Assembly (NCBI RefSeq): GCF_000018865.1
Contig: NC_010175.1
Span: 1,736,001 to 1,800,000 of the forward strand
Direction: 5' to 3'
Origin: Chloroflexus aurantiacus J-10-fl
Lineage (GTDB): Bacteria; Chloroflexota; Chloroflexia; Chloroflexales; Chloroflexaceae
DNA: 64,000 nt
Numbering within the stretch: position 1 is the first letter of the stretch; each line of letters opens with the position of its first letter. The position numbers were made by a program, and so were the translations under genes. Positions 3,970 through 11,792 of the stretch are shown here, one piece after another. Below the pieces are notes generated by a model, which saw nothing but the letters and a program-made list of their open reading frames with translations, made no database searches and was not told the origin of the DNA.

Positions 3970-4085
3970 ATAAAATGAAACATATGTTCAATTATTGTGC
4001 TACAATATGCTATACCATACCCTTCTACCGCGAATCAGGTTACAATGAGAAAACGGTATGTACCGTGATTGATATAGGACAGGAT

Positions 4086-5075
4086 ATGAGTGAATTACCA
4101 TTGTTTCGTTCGGTAACGTCTATCGAAACTGCTTTCAGGCCAGATGCCGACGTGATCATCATGTCAGGCGATGTGAGTGAATGCATCGCGCAGATTCCCG
4201 ATCGTTCAATCGCCCTGATCGTCACATCACCGCCGTACAATCTGGGAAAAGCCTATGAAGATCGAGTCTCGATTGAAGCATATTTGCAGACTCAGGCGGA
4301 ACTTATTGCGCAGCTCTGTCGTGTGTTGCGCGACGATGGCAGTATTTGCTGGCAGGTAGGTAACTTCGTCGAGCATGGTGAAGTGTACCCACTTGATATT
4401 CTGTACTACCCCATCTTCAAGAGACTGGGCCTGAGACTACGCAACCGGATTGTCTGGAAATTTGGGCATGGCTTGCACGCTTCAAAACGATTCTCCGGGC
4501 GCTATGAAACGATCCTCTGGTTTACCAAATCGGACCACTACATCTTCAATTTAGATGCAGTTCGTGTTCCGGCCAAATACCCCGGTAAACGACACTTTAA
4601 AGGTCCGAATAAGGGCAGGCCATCAGGTAATCCCCTGGGGAAGAATCCGTCGGATGTTTGGGAAATCCTCGAACGGGATTGGGAAGAACTGGTATGGGAC
4701 ATCCCGAATGTCAAATCGAACCATCCAGAAAAGACCATACATCCCTGTCAGTTTCCGATTGAACTGGTTGAGCGTTGCGTGCTTGCCCTGACCAATGAAG
4801 GTGATATGGTCTTTGACCCGTATATGGGGGTCGGCTCGACCTTGATTGCTGCATTGATGCATCAGCGACGTGCCGTTGGTTGTGATAAAGAAGCAACGTA
4901 TGTCGAAATTGCTCGTCAACGTGTGGTTGATTATTTCAATGGTACCCTGCGTTACCGTCCGCTCGGCAAACCCGTTTACCAGCCAACAGGGAGAGAGAAA
5001 GTTTCTCAGATTCCAGAGGAGTGGAAGGAGTCGTTACAAGCCCGACTTCTGGAGCGAAATGGAGATTACGAATGA
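4086..5075 (+). CDS. Type II DNA methyltransferase, probably N4-cytosine, beta class
   Basis: S-adenosylmethionine-dependent DNA methyltransferase of 329 residues. The catalytic motif TSPPY is at 47-51 and the SAM-binding motif FDPYMGVGS at 243-251, so motif IV precedes motif I, the beta-class order. TSPPY is the form usual in N4-cytosine enzymes. Between them, HPEKTIHPCQFP is the usual motif X region. The frame is open far upstream across gyrA, but I chose the ATG at 4086, which is where homology-like sequence begins. It overlaps the endonuclease gene by ATGA and is presumably its cognate modification enzyme; BglII/BstYI-type enzymes act on GATC-core sites, so it may modify such a site (inference). 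The pair is more A+T-rich than its neighbours, suggesting transfer. Confidence 0.9.
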   Translation: MSELPLFRSVTSIETAFRPDADVIIMSGDVSECIAQIPDRSIALIVTSPPYNLGKAYEDRVSIEAYLQTQAELIAQLCRVLRDDGSICWQVGNFVEHGEVYPLDILYYPIFKRLGLRLRNRIVWKFGHGLHASKRFSGRYETILWFTKSDHYIFNLDAVRVPAKYPGKRHFKGPNKGRPSGNPLGKNPSDVWEILERDWEELVWDIPNVKSNHPEKTIHPCQFPIELVERCVLALTNEGDMVFDPYMGVGSTLIAALMHQRRAVGCDKEATYVEIARQRVVDYFNGTLRYRPLGKPVYQPTGREKVSQIPEEWKESLQARLLERNGDYE

Positions 5076-8393: not shown

Positions 8394-9671
8394 ATGCACA
8401 TTCTCCACGTTGTTCAACTCTACTGGCCGGCGCCAAGCGGCGCGGCCCGTTATTTTCAAGAAATCGGGAAGCGGCTGGTCGCTGAAGGCCATCGCGTTAC
8501 CGTGCTGGCAACTGACGCCTTCGATCTCGAACACCTCTGGATGGCCGGGAAGCGCCGGATTCCTGAACCGGTCGGTGAGCACGATGGCGTCGTTATACGG
8601 CGTCTGCCGATCCGACGGCTGCCTGCGCCAGCTATCCTCTACCCCATCATCCGCCGCCTGATGGTGGAATTGGGCCGGCTGGGCCGTCCCGCCATCCCGA
8701 CCCTCCGTCGATTGGCTACCGTAACCCCACAGCTTCCCGATCTGGAGGCATTCCTGGCCGACCCCTATCTCGCCGATGTCGCGGTGGTGCATACTACCAA
8801 CATCACCCTCGATTTTGCGCTCATCCCGGTTGTGCGCTGGGCAAGGCGGCGTGGTCTGCCCCACCTTTGTACCCCCTTCGTGCATTTGGGCGAACCGGGA
8901 AGTGAGCAGGTGGTACGCTACTATGCGATGCCACATCAGCTTGATCTGTTGCGGCAGGCAACCTGGGTGGCGACGATGACCGATCTGGAGCGGGCATACC
9001 TGATACGGCGTGGAGTGGCGGCACAACAGATCGTGACGGTTGGGGCAGGGGTGAACCCGGCTGAAGTGACCGGCGGTGACGGTCAGCGCTTCCGCGCAAT
9101 CCATCACATCCATGGCCCGCTGGTTCTGAGCCTGGGGGTTGCCGCTTTCGATAAGGGTACCGTGCATACGCTGGCTGCGATGCGTCAGTTGTGGGCACAG
9201 GGTAGTCATGCGGTGTGGGTGCAGTGTGGGCCGGCCTTTGGCGGTTTTGCCGAGACAGTCGCCGCCCTCAGCCCGGATGAACAGGCGCGAGTGCGGGTGC
9301 TCGGTTATGTTGATGATACAACGCGCCGTGATGCACTGGCGGCAGCCGATCTTTACGTGCAACCGTCACGCACTGATAGCTTCGGGATTACGTACCTTGA
9401 AGCGTGGTGTAACGGGGTTCCGGTGATCGGCGCCCGTGCCGGGGGCGTCCCTGCGGTTGTGCGGCACGGTGTTGATGGCTTGCTGGTGCGGTTTGGCGAT
9501 GTGCCGGGTATCGCAGCGGCTATCGACCGCTTACTGCGTGATAGAGCACTTGCCCGCGCTCTCGGTGCTGCCGGACGAGCGCGGGTCTGGCGCGAGTTAA
9601 CCTGGGATGCCGTCTATCAGCGGATTCGCCCGCTCTACATGCCTCACTTCAGCGAACATCGTCGCGGGTGA
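8394..9671 (+). CDS. Glycosyltransferase family 4 (GT-B fold)
   Basis: A 425-residue retaining glycosyltransferase of the GT4 type, which transfers a sugar from a nucleotide donor to an unknown acceptor such as a glycolipid or polysaccharide. The N-terminal Rossmann domain starts HILHVVQLYWPAPSGAARY, with the usual glycine-rich acceptor loop. The C-terminal donor-binding domain has VQPSRTDSFGITYLEAW followed by NGVPVIGARAGGVPAVV; the usual E-x7-E pair appears here as D-x7-E. There is no signal peptide. The 3' end overlaps the end of the convergent acetyltransferase gene by 23 bases. No partner glycan genes are adjacent, so the substrate is unknown. Confidence 0.93.
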   Translation: MHILHVVQLYWPAPSGAARYFQEIGKRLVAEGHRVTVLATDAFDLEHLWMAGKRRIPEPVGEHDGVVIRRLPIRRLPAPAILYPIIRRLMVELGRLGRPAIPTLRRLATVTPQLPDLEAFLADPYLADVAVVHTTNITLDFALIPVVRWARRRGLPHLCTPFVHLGEPGSEQVVRYYAMPHQLDLLRQATWVATMTDLERAYLIRRGVAAQQIVTVGAGVNPAEVTGGDGQRFRAIHHIHGPLVLSLGVAAFDKGTVHTLAAMRQLWAQGSHAVWVQCGPAFGGFAETVAALSPDEQARVRVLGYVDDTTRRDALAAADLYVQPSRTDSFGITYLEAWCNGVPVIGARAGGVPAVVRHGVDGLLVRFGDVPGIAAAIDRLLRDRALARALGAAGRARVWRELTWDAVYQRIRPLYMPHFSEHRRG

Positions 9672-10206
9672 TTTCCATGAGAATACGGTCGTAGCGCTGG
9701 CCGTCGAATAGCGTTGCCCCGCGCAGCCGGCCTGCCTCGCGAAAGCCGGCTGCCAGGTAAGCGCGACGGGCACGTTCGTTGAAGCCATGCACCCATAACC
9801 TGATGCTGTACAGGTTGAGGTAACGAAACCCATACGCGACGAGTAAGCGGACAGCTTCACGACCGTACCCCTGCCCCCAGGCCGTTTTGTCGCCGATAGC
9901 AATGCCCAACTCGGCGGTGCCGTGCAATAAATCGATGCTTCGCAGATTGCACGTACCTATCAATTGCTCATTGGCACACAGCACTATCGCAAACGAACGT
10001 TCACTATCTTTCGCCGCTGTGCTCTCTGTAATCCACTGCTGTTCTTGCTCCAGGGTAAAACTACGCCCCTGCTGCCCCAAGAGAGTGGTGAATTCCAGAT
10101 CGGCAAACCATTGCGCCAAAAGTGGAGCATCTTCAGCAAAGACGTGGCTCAAAAAGACCTTCTCGCCGGTCATCACCTTTGGGCGGGGGCGCGATGACGT
10201 GATCAT
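9649..10206 (-). CDS. GNAT-family N-acetyltransferase, RimJ/RimL-like
   Basis: A 185-residue acetyl-CoA-dependent acetyltransferase. It has the core GNAT pattern: TAELGIAIGDKTAWGQGYG gives the acetyl-CoA pyrophosphate loop (GQGYGREA), followed by AYGFRYLNLYSIRLWVHGFN and NERARRAYLAAGFREAGRL, typical of the RimJ/RimL group that acetylates protein N-termini or small amines. The ATG has a strong ribosome site, AGGAGG, 5 bases upstream. It lies 21 bases after rsgA on the same strand and is probably the last gene of that operon. The substrate cannot be told from the sequence. Confidence 0.92.
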   Translation of the reverse strand: MITSSRPRPKVMTGEKVFLSHVFAEDAPLLAQWFADLEFTTLLGQQGRSFTLEQEQQWITESTAAKDSERSFAIVLCANEQLIGTCNLRSIDLLHGTAELGIAIGDKTAWGQGYGREAVRLLVAYGFRYLNLYSIRLWVHGFNERARRAYLAAGFREAGRLRGATLFDGQRYDRILMEITRDDVR

Positions 10207-10227: not shown

Positions 10228-11202
10228 CTATTCCTCGTCTTCACTCTCCATCAGCCGGGCGTAACTATCGTACCGGGCTGCCGTGATGTCACCCCGCTCC
10301 ACTGCGGCACGGACGGCACAATGCGGTTCGTGAAGATGGGTGCATCCGGCAAAGTAGCAGTCGTCGAGAAATGGGCGAAATTCACGGAAGCACCAGGCCA
10401 GATCACGTTCTGGCACATTCCACAGCCCAATCTCCCGAATACCCGGTGTATCGGCCACATAGCCGCCACCCGGTAGATCGAGCGGGATCAACTCGGCAAC
10501 GGTCGTCGTATGGCGGCCTTTGGTTAGTCGCTCGCTAATCTCACCGGTGCGCAGATTGAGGCCGGGTTGAATGGCATTGAGCAGGCTGCTCTTGCCAACC
10601 CCCGATTTGCCGGTGACCACACTGATACGTCCGGCCAGTTGGCTGCGCAGTTCGGCAATGCCCTCGCCGCTGACGATGCTGGTGTAAAAGACCGGATAGC
10701 CAATGCGGGCATACGGACTAAACATCGCCTCAGCCGCATGCTGCACCACCAGATCAATTTTCGTGGCGACAATCACAACCGGCAATTCACTGTGTTCGCA
10801 TATCACCAGATAGCGGTCAAGCATGCGCGGCGTGAACTCAGGTTTGGTGCAGGAAAAGACCAGCAATACCTGATCGACATTGGCAACGATCACGTCCTCT
10901 TTGTAAGCGCCGCGTGGCCCGGCGGCCCGTCGGGCCAGCCGGCTGCGACGGGGCAAGACAGCCTCAATCGCGCCCTGACCGTTACCAACCGGCATGACCT
11001 CAACCTGATCGCCGATCACAACCAGATCGGTGGCCTGCCGCTCTTTCTTCAAACGCCCGCGCAGCCGGCATTCGAGGACACCCTGTTCGGTCTGCACCCA
11101 GAAGAAGCCACTCTGGGCACGCAAAACGGTGCCAATCAGTCGGAGCGTTTTCTCCGTGGTGGTGGATGTATGAGTGACAGCGGGTGCAATATTACGACTC
11201 AT
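10228..11202 (-). CDS. rsgA: Small ribosomal subunit biogenesis GTPase RsgA
   Basis: A circularly permuted GTPase of 324 residues that checks late 30S maturation. The N-terminal OB fold (LIGTVLRAQSGFFWVQTEQG) is followed by the permuted G domain: NVDQVLLVFS, ATKIDLV (G4), then GKSGVGKSSLLNAI (G1) and DTPGIREIG (G3). The C-terminal zinc site is visible in DDCYFAGCTHLHEPHCAV. I prefer the ATG at 11202 to the one at 11229 because GGAGG stands 9 bases before it. It overlaps the upstream 87-residue gene by 11 bases, so translation is probably coupled. Confidence 0.97.
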   Translation of the reverse strand: MSRNIAPAVTHTSTTTEKTLRLIGTVLRAQSGFFWVQTEQGVLECRLRGRLKKERQATDLVVIGDQVEVMPVGNGQGAIEAVLPRRSRLARRAAGPRGAYKEDVIVANVDQVLLVFSCTKPEFTPRMLDRYLVICEHSELPVVIVATKIDLVVQHAAEAMFSPYARIGYPVFYTSIVSGEGIAELRSQLAGRISVVTGKSGVGKSSLLNAIQPGLNLRTGEISERLTKGRHTTTVAELIPLDLPGGGYVADTPGIREIGLWNVPERDLAWCFREFRPFLDDCYFAGCTHLHEPHCAVRAAVERGDITAARYDSYARLMESEDEE

Positions 11203-11455
11203 CGATGCGCACCTCCAGCCGATGAACACCTGCTATGTCAAAAGCTATACGAATGATCCGCTCAATCAAGGTCGCCGATGGTAAATCGTTCGGCGTTGCT
11301 GCCGTTATCGTCGTCTGCGCACGACGTTTCCGCTGCGATTGCGGTGGATGATATGATAACGAGCCATCTCGTTCAAGAATTATCACGATGGTCTCCTCCA
11401 CGTCTGGTTGTGTCCGGGGTTCGGCGATGTTATCGATGACGTCGTATGCCGACAT
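11192..11455 (-). CDS. Hypothetical 87-residue protein upstream of rsgA
   Basis: I do not recognise the family. The ATG at 11455 has a good ribosome site (AGAAAGGAAG). The protein begins MSAYDVIDNIAEP, has a polar middle with a basic patch (QSQRKRRAQTT) and ends in an amphipathic stretch, LIERIIRIAFDIAGVHRLEV. It has no signal peptide or membrane segment. Its 3' end overlaps rsgA, so the two are co-translated, and it is the first full-length gene downstream of the leader/attenuator-like region at 11528-11722. A role linked to ribosome assembly is only a guess from position. Confidence 0.7.
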   Translation of the reverse strand: MSAYDVIDNIAEPRTQPDVEETIVIILERDGSLSYHPPQSQRKRRAQTTITAATPNDLPSATLIERIIRIAFDIAGVHRLEVRIDES

Positions 11456-11527
11456 AGCAATCTTCCTTTCTGGTGGCATGCCGTAAACCGCTGCGACGAA
11501 CGAACCGTGACGTGGAGGAAACACAAA

Positions 11528-11599
11528 GGGCTGTGATGCGCCGGTAACGCCACAGCCCCATAAAAACGGGCTGTGGGTAACTTCAGCTTCCCACAGCCC
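11528..11599 (-). promoter_or_regulatory. Four-segment alternating hairpin region (attenuator-like)
   Basis: Read on the minus strand there are four mutually complementary segments: 1, GGGCTGTGGG (11599-11590); 2, CCCACAGCCC (11577-11568); 3, GGGCTGTGG (11558-11550); 4, CACAGCCC (11535-11528). Segments 1:2 and 3:4 can form two hairpins, or 2:3 can form one alternative hairpin. Hairpin 3:4 is followed by TTTGTGTTT and could act as a terminator. This is the layout of a classical transcription attenuator, placed between a short leader reading frame and the 87-residue/rsgA operon. Whether it regulates is inferred. Confidence 0.65.
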
Positions 11600-11623
11600 A
11601 TCAGTACGACAGGTTATCCCTGG

Positions 11624-11722
11624 TCAGCCTGCGCTGTGCGAAGCTCCTCTCACGTCAGCGGAGTCGTTCGTCATCACCACGACGGTGGCAATCATTATGT
11701 CCTGGTTGGTGATGAGTATCAT
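11624..11722 (-). CDS. 32-residue leader peptide candidate
   Basis: A short reading frame starting MILITNQDIMIATVVVM and ending in GASHSAG. AGAGGAGG (11729-11736) stands 6 bases before the ATG, a near-perfect ribosome site, and a promoter with a perfect -35 box lies just upstream. The first half is rich in Ile, Val, Met and Thr (ILI, IMI, TVVVMT). The stop codon is 24 bases before segment 1 of the alternating hairpins. Position and composition suggest a leader peptide sensing translation, but it could be an independent small protein. Confidence 0.6.
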   Translation of the reverse strand: MILITNQDIMIATVVVMTNDSADVRGASHSAG

Positions 11723-11763
11723 GAACGTCCTCCTCTGAACGAATACGAACCGCTTGCCCGTGC

Positions 11764-11792
11764 AGCATAGCACGTCAACGGATTGCTGTCAA
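11764..11792 (-). promoter_or_regulatory. Promoter of the leader peptide / rsgA operon
   Basis: On the minus strand TTGACA (11787-11792, perfect -35, overlapping the stop codon of the dehydratase gene) is followed after 17 bases by TATGCT (11764-11769, four of six). The start of transcription would be near 11757, about 20 bases before the leader ribosome site. Confidence 0.65.

Follow-up and report, generated by a model that had tools for sequence, protein, structure and literature searches.

Organisation of the rsgA leader in Chloroflexus aurantiacus

The window, by which we mean the whole 64,000-nucleotide stretch of C. aurantiacus J-10-fl DNA analysed here, carries on its minus strand a leader composed of a promoter, a 32-codon upstream open reading frame (uORF) and two tandem terminator hairpins, followed by the genes for ORF87, for the GTPase RsgA and for an acetyltransferase (Table 1). 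The upstream neighbour of the leader encodes a PALP-family enzyme. When 4 kb were scanned for promoters, that of the leader ranked first among 7 sites (10/12 plus TG).

Table 1. Features of the rsgA leader and its operon in the window
Feature	Position	Strand	Remarks
rsgA leader	11792-11517	-	promoter, uORF, two tandem terminator hairpins
Leader promoter	11764..11792	-	TTGACA-17-TATGCT, extended -10 (TG); near-consensus
-35 and -10 boxes	11792-11787 and 11769-11764	-	TTGACA; 17-nt spacer; TATGCT, TG-extended; from sequence
Shine-Dalgarno of uORF	11729..11736	-	AGAGGAGG; six bases ahead of ATG 11722
uORF	11624..11722	-	32 codons, MILITNQDIMIATVVVMTNDSADVRGASHSAG, then stop TGA 11626-11624
Segment 0	11633..11644	-	GCTTCGCACAGC; within uORF 3' end; antiterminator 5' side; complementary to 11597-11586
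Small hairpin CAGG/CCTG	11610..11622	-	nested in antiterminator; from folds and alignment
Segment 1	11586..11599	-	pairs with 0 in antiterminator, with 2 in terminator hairpin 1; no change among 8 genus genomes
Four alternating segments	11599-11590, 11577-11568, 11558-11550, 11535-11528	-	GGGCTGTGGG, CCCACAGCCC, GGGCTGTGG, CACAGCCC, in this order
Terminator hairpin 1	11565..11602	-	segments 1:2, then GTTTTTAT
Terminator hairpin 2	11527..11559	-	segments 3:4, then TTTGTGTTT from 11527
ORF87	11192..11455	-	small conserved protein without known family; first operon gene
rsgA	10228..11202	-	30S-subunit-dependent GTPase; PF03193; TIGR00157 above cut-off; start overlaps ORF87 end
GNAT acetyltransferase	9649..10206	-	3' of rsgA

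A sequence-only reading of this DNA had already noticed the promoter with its perfect -35 box, the 32-codon frame with its ribosome-binding site, four alternating complementary segments ending in a T-rich tail, a distance of 24 bases between the uORF stop and segment 1, and the three downstream genes, and we found all of these where it had placed them. Its interpretation as an attenuator largely held: the leader-peptide attenuator was retained, the four-segment picture of the trp type was not, and a further segment lying inside the uORF had been missed. This segment 0, which encodes Ala-Ser-His-Ser, is complementary to segment 1 and can form an antiterminator with it.

The leader could be aligned in all 8 genomes of the genus. 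The GGAGG 5' of the uORF start is present in 8/8, insertions and deletions within the uORF are of 3 or 6 nt only, and the position of the stop is kept; segment 1 is invariant, and its partner, segment 2, varies. Of the two features for which the sequence-only reading proposed to look, compensatory changes in the segments were seen across other genera, and conservation of the uORF extended to the frame, the Shine-Dalgarno sequence and the stop position but not to the N-terminal peptide. In single-sequence folds, the Shine-Dalgarno sequence and start codon of the Chloroflexus uORF can pair with later uORF codons (GTCAGAGGAG/CTCCGCTGAC and ATGACAC/GTGTC, 11736-11661, minus strand), a pairing that may gate initiation of the uORF.

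We asked whether the leader belongs to a described RNA family or to a dispersed repeat. Rfam returned 3 matches at E≤10, all under the gathering score (the best with 18.8 bits against 45), and a known family was rejected for want of a match at the curated threshold. A repeat family was rejected as well: in the bacterium's own genome, a single contig of 5,258,541 bases, there was no second copy of the leader, the best other match being 31 nt long at 84% identity (E 0.08). A 21-nt match in one relative, among genes that we read as dhaL-like, was put down to chance.

The leader is linked to rsgA across the order

Direct reading of the DNA upstream of rsgA revealed this arrangement in further genera. 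A covariance model built on the two hairpins, R1, matched 39 of 41 family genomes at a loose E≤1; among the 82 genomes of the order, 57 had a match at E≤0.01. At E≤1e-4 it matched 48 of 158 class genomes, 47 of which belong to the order. The weakest matches, some of them far from rsgA, are probably chance. In 45 of the 47 order genomes that R1 matched at E≤1e-4, the match is followed by rsgA in the same orientation, a count that is free of selection for nearness to rsgA and that includes two genomes, G031 and G041, whose contigs contain only part of the gene. This leaves two exceptions, G049 and the best match of G057. The match in G049 (E 1e-6) was judged false, as the hairpin is odd and no rsgA was found in that genome, and so was a match in G058 at E 7e-4. 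When weak matches were included, rsgA lay downstream in 47 of 50 leader loci, a biased figure in that some of the weak loci (e.g., G016, G021, G028 and G032) had been chosen for their nearness to rsgA; with G000, G002 and G005, the loci considered here number 53 in total.

The second exception comes from the Herpetosiphonaceae. In G057, the best R1 match precedes a gene for a class I SAM-dependent methyltransferase (L121, reverse strand, near 3977-4115), and a second, weaker leader (E 9e-4, read by eye) precedes rsgA; the leader module may be portable. Promoter, uORF, both hairpins, the gene for an ABC ATPase and rsgA were also seen in three records from Herpetosiphon, one of them H. aurantiacus DSM 785. 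These leaders were located by a promoter scan and by eye, R1 missing divergent leaders, and an ORF87-like frame was seen in them by eye, with no match by tblastn.

By these searches, each of the four families of the order has members with the leader, but not every genus does. In G042, G024, G037, G025 and G027, rsgA is present with neither promoter nor hairpin in the 1.5-3.3 kb upstream, save for one unrelated-looking hairpin in G024, and 10 of the 11 genomes of genus g21 gave no R1 match at E≤0.01. A hairpin upstream of rsgA is visible in G046, G026 and G058, in which R1 scored poorly or missed. The rsgA gene itself was not found in 9 of 19 order genomes searched (G053, G014, G049, G063, G066, G069, G070, G071 and G073); these nine, several of which are incomplete assemblies, are also without a trustworthy leader match. 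Two of them, G070 and G071, are 99% complete and kin of a leader-bearing genus, which raises the possibility of a joint loss of gene and leader.

Between leader and rsgA lies ORF87, a DrrA-like ABC ATPase or both in 44 of the 47 rsgA-linked loci; neither was detected in G009, G032 and G048. ORF87 homologues follow the leader in 34 relative loci and share the core VIILERDGSL ... FDxLGxxxLEVRV. The members tested matched no Pfam or NCBIfam family, and the AlphaFold model is weak (mean pLDDT 63). The ABC ATPase, which scores under the curated cut-off, is found in many genera (G020, G021, G022, G016, G030 and others), and its presence in the operon may hint at a link with drug export or stress.

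The upstream frame is kept and most of its peptide is not

The leaders were scanned for a frame of 24-46 codons preceded by a Shine-Dalgarno sequence and ending 18-35 nt before the GTGGG anchor. Such a uORF, with a near-constant stop distance, was present in 44 of the 46 leaders of clear register, whereas 1.4 were expected from first-order Markov sequences; 7 of the 53 leaders had been set aside beforehand for unclear register and, scored as misses, bring the count to 44/53. The two misses are G022, whose stop lies farther upstream, and G048, which as read has lost both the stop and hairpin 2. As a side observation, the latter leader (L091) appears to be decaying, its frame running on toward rsgA. 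Among the leaders of unclear register, the uORF of G016 stops 55 nt from the hairpin, G031 and G034 have only GTG or TTG frames, and the scan found no uORF in G021 and G065.

The uORFs are 27-43 codons long and start with ATG in 41 of 44 cases. Within genera, the N-terminal part showed 113 synonymous and 224 non-synonymous single changes, with 93.8 synonymous changes expected, and its differences were spread over codon positions 1, 2 and 3 as 313, 326 and 342; these counts, like those given below for the C-terminal part, are pairwise and non-independent, and about half come from the Chloroflexus genus. On such substitution patterns, the N-terminal peptide looks unconstrained: the frame is kept, most of the peptide is not. 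In G019, G011 and G012 we also noticed by eye two small hairpins in the middle of the uORF (GTCGGC/GCCGAC and CGGGCC/GGCCCG types), which seem to vary in concert from one genus to the next and are perhaps polymerase pause hairpins.

Antiterminator and terminators covary

In the other genera, the counterpart of segment 0 is found some 24 to 15 nt ahead of the stop and mostly consists of the codons for Leu, Ala or Val followed by Pro-Thr. Its changes go together with those of hairpin 1: the pairs CTACCC/GGGTAG, TGCCCA/TGGGCA, CGCCCAC/GTGGGCG and CTGGTC/GACCAG are all encountered. A further helix, P0, joins the last uORF codons to the bases just 5' of hairpin 1 and is likewise altered on both sides (GCTC/GAGC, ACTC/GAGT and, in Herpetosiphon, GTGCTT/AAGCAC). 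The CAGG/CCTG hairpin of C. aurantiacus is presumably its counterpart.

To quantify this covariation, the pairing energy between each leader's own segments 0 and 1 was compared with that obtained when partners were permuted among 24 genera. Own partners gave a mean of -19.9 kcal/mol, against -17.7 kcal/mol (sd 0.47) for permuted ones (0/5000), and the permutation fraction was 0.0016 in family f1 (13 genera) and 0.0042 in the other families (11 genera). Of four off-target controls in which other pairs of stretches were treated in the same way, three had no effect and one reached 0.027.

The same helices were then followed in an alignment of 38 leaders, A3, from which the 8 Chloroflexus-genus genomes (different register) and G049, G058, G016, G021, G031, G034 and G065 (hairpin or register unclear) were left out. 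The antiterminator was paired in 81.2% of the cells, compared with 73.2% in shuffles and 32-43% when it was slid along the alignment. It contained 41 double-changed cells against 17.5 in shuffles (0/500 reach this value) and 8 pairs with double changes against 5.3 (13/500); the number of pair types, 23 against 21.6, was not above shuffling (142/500). Helix by helix, double changes were seen in 5/5 pairs of P0 and in 3/9 pairs of helix 0:1 (75.7% of cells paired), and terminator hairpin 1, with 99.4% of its cells paired, had them in 5/9 pairs.

Permutation gave 0/5000 for each of the terminator pairings 1:2 and 3:4, and the two tandem terminator-like hairpins are mostly followed by T-rich tails. 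For the pairing 2:3, which contains an A.C mismatch in many genera, the fraction was 0.0016 overall, 0.0064 in f1 and 0.10, not significant, outside f1; some automatic picks of hairpin 2 look wrong (e.g., in G008, G020, G043 and G054), and G048 was left out of all these permutations. The pairing 1:4 reached 0.04. The classic 2:3 alternative is therefore supported by these comparisons, more weakly than the other pairings. Taken together, the covariation supports a leader RNA with two states, both of which are conserved as complementarity, alongside a conserved reading frame.

A proposed kinetic switch governed by translation of the uORF

Partial transcripts were folded in order to follow the leader as it would emerge from the polymerase. 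In RNA ending short of the 3' arm of hairpin 1, the uORF was the partner of segment 1 in 43 of 44 leaders; G017 failed, and in G041 the pairing involved another part of the uORF. With the last 15 uORF codons folded alone, 9 to 16 pairs formed per leader. The uORF end made 12.2 pairs with segment 1 on average, against 8.9 after codon shuffling, and the stability of the pre-hairpin fold exceeded that of 95% of codon shuffles in 24/44 leaders only. Once completed, hairpin 1 outcompetes the antiterminator at equilibrium with a ribosome and even without one (mean P 0.95 in the latter case), which requires a kinetic switch. For escape from the antiterminator, a barrier with a median of 12.8 kcal/mol was computed (interquartile range 9.7-14.6, extremes 0.7 and 23.2, as modelled at 37 C), the value for G030 being uninformative because its full-length fold still kept the antiterminator. 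With a ribosome placed on the stop codon, the probability of the antiterminator fell below 0.5 in 7/8 leaders of the Chloroflexus genus and in 20/44 overall; 24/44 kept a probability above 0.5. In the folding model, the ribosome would thus have to sit a few codons earlier in the other genera to cover segment 0.

We propose, with a probability of roughly 0.78, that the leader is a uORF-mediated transcription attenuator that senses translation of the leader frame, failed or early-stalled translation giving readthrough into the rsgA operon. In the nascent leader, the 5' arm of hairpin 1 would be captured by segment 0 and P0, so that the antiterminator precedes completion of the hairpin; it would also free segment 2 to pair with segment 3 and thereby disarm hairpin 2. 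Because segment 0 lies within the uORF, translation itself can break the antiterminator and should favour termination: ribosomes translating promptly would unwind or cover segment 0 and P0, letting hairpins 1 and 2 form. If initiation failed or the ribosome stalled early, the antiterminator would persist and ORF87, in many genera the ABC ATPase, and rsgA would be transcribed. The combination 0:1 with 2:3 would thus stand for readthrough and 1:2 with 3:4 for termination, and what matters would be translation of the uORF, most of the peptide sequence seeming not to. The hairpin balance points to kinetic trapping of the antiterminator; the signal would be general translation failure, and the benefit a larger supply of a 30S maturation factor in cells short of working ribosomes. 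The suggestion of the sequence-only reading that RsgA is controlled by translation state is, in this form, the best reading of the data, rsgA being the constant downstream gene, with a direction of control that we infer.

Peptide-specific, trans-acting and two-unit explanations

In contrast to the N-terminal part, the last 14 columns of the uORF showed 74 synonymous and 105 non-synonymous changes with 46.4 synonymous expected. This excess adds weight to a drug-specific arrest peptide of the RLR or +x+ kind, in which a macrolide-bound ribosome would stall at the C-terminus and flip the RNA, as in rli80-hflXr, and takes some from the attenuator proposed above. Such a peptide would agree with the basic motif [RK]x[RK] found in the last six residues of 10/44 peptides, with the many uORFs ending in LRS or LKR, with the ABC ATPase of many operons (under the curated cut-off) and with HflXr, a precedent involving a ribosome-associated GTPase in the available part of its description (PMC6310831). 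However, the motif is absent from 34/44 peptides, including 8/8 of the Chloroflexus genus, and a ribosome stalled at the end of the uORF would be expected to cover P0 and to favour termination. Moreover, the C-terminal codons that are conserved fall on segment 0 and P0, so that their conservation can be explained at the level of RNA, although substitution counts leave a mild constraint on the C-terminal residues possible. We consider a drug-specific arrest peptide unlikely.

Another explanation would reverse the roles: the conserved arm of hairpin 1 would be a binding site for RsgA itself, for a ribosomal protein or for an antisense RNA, and translation of the uORF would only modulate the outcome. 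An arm that is invariant within the genus opposite a varying partner would be expected of such a binding site, and so would an equilibrium that favours hairpin 1 whether or not a ribosome is present. Invariance of segment 1 is nevertheless also expected from its pairing with both segment 0 and segment 2, and both helices covary across genera. A trans-acting ligand is, on this evidence, very improbable.

Tandem hairpins with T-rich tails could also close a separate short transcript, an sRNA or a small protein gene, with rsgA served by a promoter of its own. A promoter of the form TTGACA-17/18-TGnTATnnT, with at least 10 of 13 positions, precedes the uORF in 42/43 leaders (G062, at a contig end, G048 and G022 are omitted from this set). 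In the 118 nt after hairpin 2, no promoter was found above the shuffled level when a sigma-70-like consensus was searched (mean 5.79 against 5.53; a score of at least 10 in 1/43). These two results argue for an attenuator and not for two units. As the antiterminator covaries, the peptide is not conserved and linkage to rsgA persists across families, we regard a separate transcript as highly improbable.

Finally, a trp-type amino-acid attenuator, in which shortage of charged tRNA would stall the ribosome at Ile, Val or Thr codons and let 2:3 form, can practically be set aside: alternating segments, a leader peptide and alternative hairpins with an intrinsic terminator are there, and Ile, Val, Met and Thr abound in the C. 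aurantiacus peptide, as the sequence-only reading had pointed out, but no residue makes up 25% or more of any of the 44 peptides, runs of three equal residues occur in 8/44, the N-terminal codon positions vary equally, the roughly 25 nt between stop and segment 1 are too many for direct masking, and no amino-acid biosynthesis gene was recognised downstream of the leader.

Discussion

Comparison among the genomes shows the uORF and its geometry, the promoter, both alternative structures and the linkage to rsgA. In its general features, the leader resembles the trp and ilv attenuators, which also combine a leader peptide with mutually exclusive hairpins. It differs from them in having no regulatory codons and one extra segment, and in the predicted outcome: in the trp operon an untranslated leader terminates, whereas the untranslated rsgA leader is predicted to be ON.

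Further likenesses are found in other systems. In the whiB7/wblC genes of Actinobacteria, a translated uORF promotes a Rho-independent terminator, and disrupted translation leads to an antiterminator and readthrough (PMC11550727). By description, not by sequence, the logic that we infer for the rsgA leader is the same, translated being OFF and untranslated ON, but the target in Actinobacteria is a transcription factor for antibiotic resistance; the present leader is set apart by having two terminators in a row and a segment that lies within the end of the uORF, and by its usual target, rsgA, in another phylum. A uORF and an alternative terminator/antiterminator likewise precede the gene of a ribosome-associated GTPase in Listeria (rli80-hflXr) and in the uORFC-6-1 motif, which is located 5' of hflX (PMC6310831, PMC8632094). 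In rli80-hflXr, stalling on a 14-residue RLR peptide drives induction and a start-codon mutant is uninduced (PMC6310831), whereas the rsgA leader has a variable peptide of 27-43 codons and its operon should be turned on by loss of translation. The toiL uORF before topAI also senses several translation stresses but, in the account available, acts on ribosome-site access and Rho rather than on intrinsic terminators (PMC12121999). As a terminator that precedes a gene for 30S maturation, the rimP-leader comes closest; it is a conserved 5' terminator, sometimes in tandem with a possible antiterminator. Here the gene is another one, a uORF is not described in the part of the source available, and the likeness is again one of description, not of sequence (PMC2965389).

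The rsgA leader is best regarded as a variant of uORF-mediated attenuation, with a 30S-assembly GTPase as its target. Among the literature matches listed, which were short lists of partial coverage, no paper dealt with an attenuator before rsgA or with a comparable leader from Chloroflexota, and a word search in the available text of a review of ribosome-assembly GTPases (PMC6912228) gave no relevant mention of attenuation or leader peptides. The target is unusual, since almost all earlier antibiotic-sensing uORFs precede antibiotic-related genes according to the part of PMC12121999 that was available.

At a broader level, we lean slightly towards regarding the leader as an ancestral sensor of ribosome capacity, present in all four families and largely independent of the peptide: a five-segment, double-terminator RNA would read translation of the uORF, adjust RsgA and so close a feedback loop from ribosome output to ribosome assembly. 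To our knowledge, the matching of ribosome assembly factors to translation capacity is poorly understood outside the control of rRNA and ribosomal proteins. The geometry of the leader is simple enough for the proposal to be tested by a few base changes. If it is true, translation status would act directly on a late 30S-assembly GTPase in these bacteria, and the building of ribosomes may rise when translation fails.
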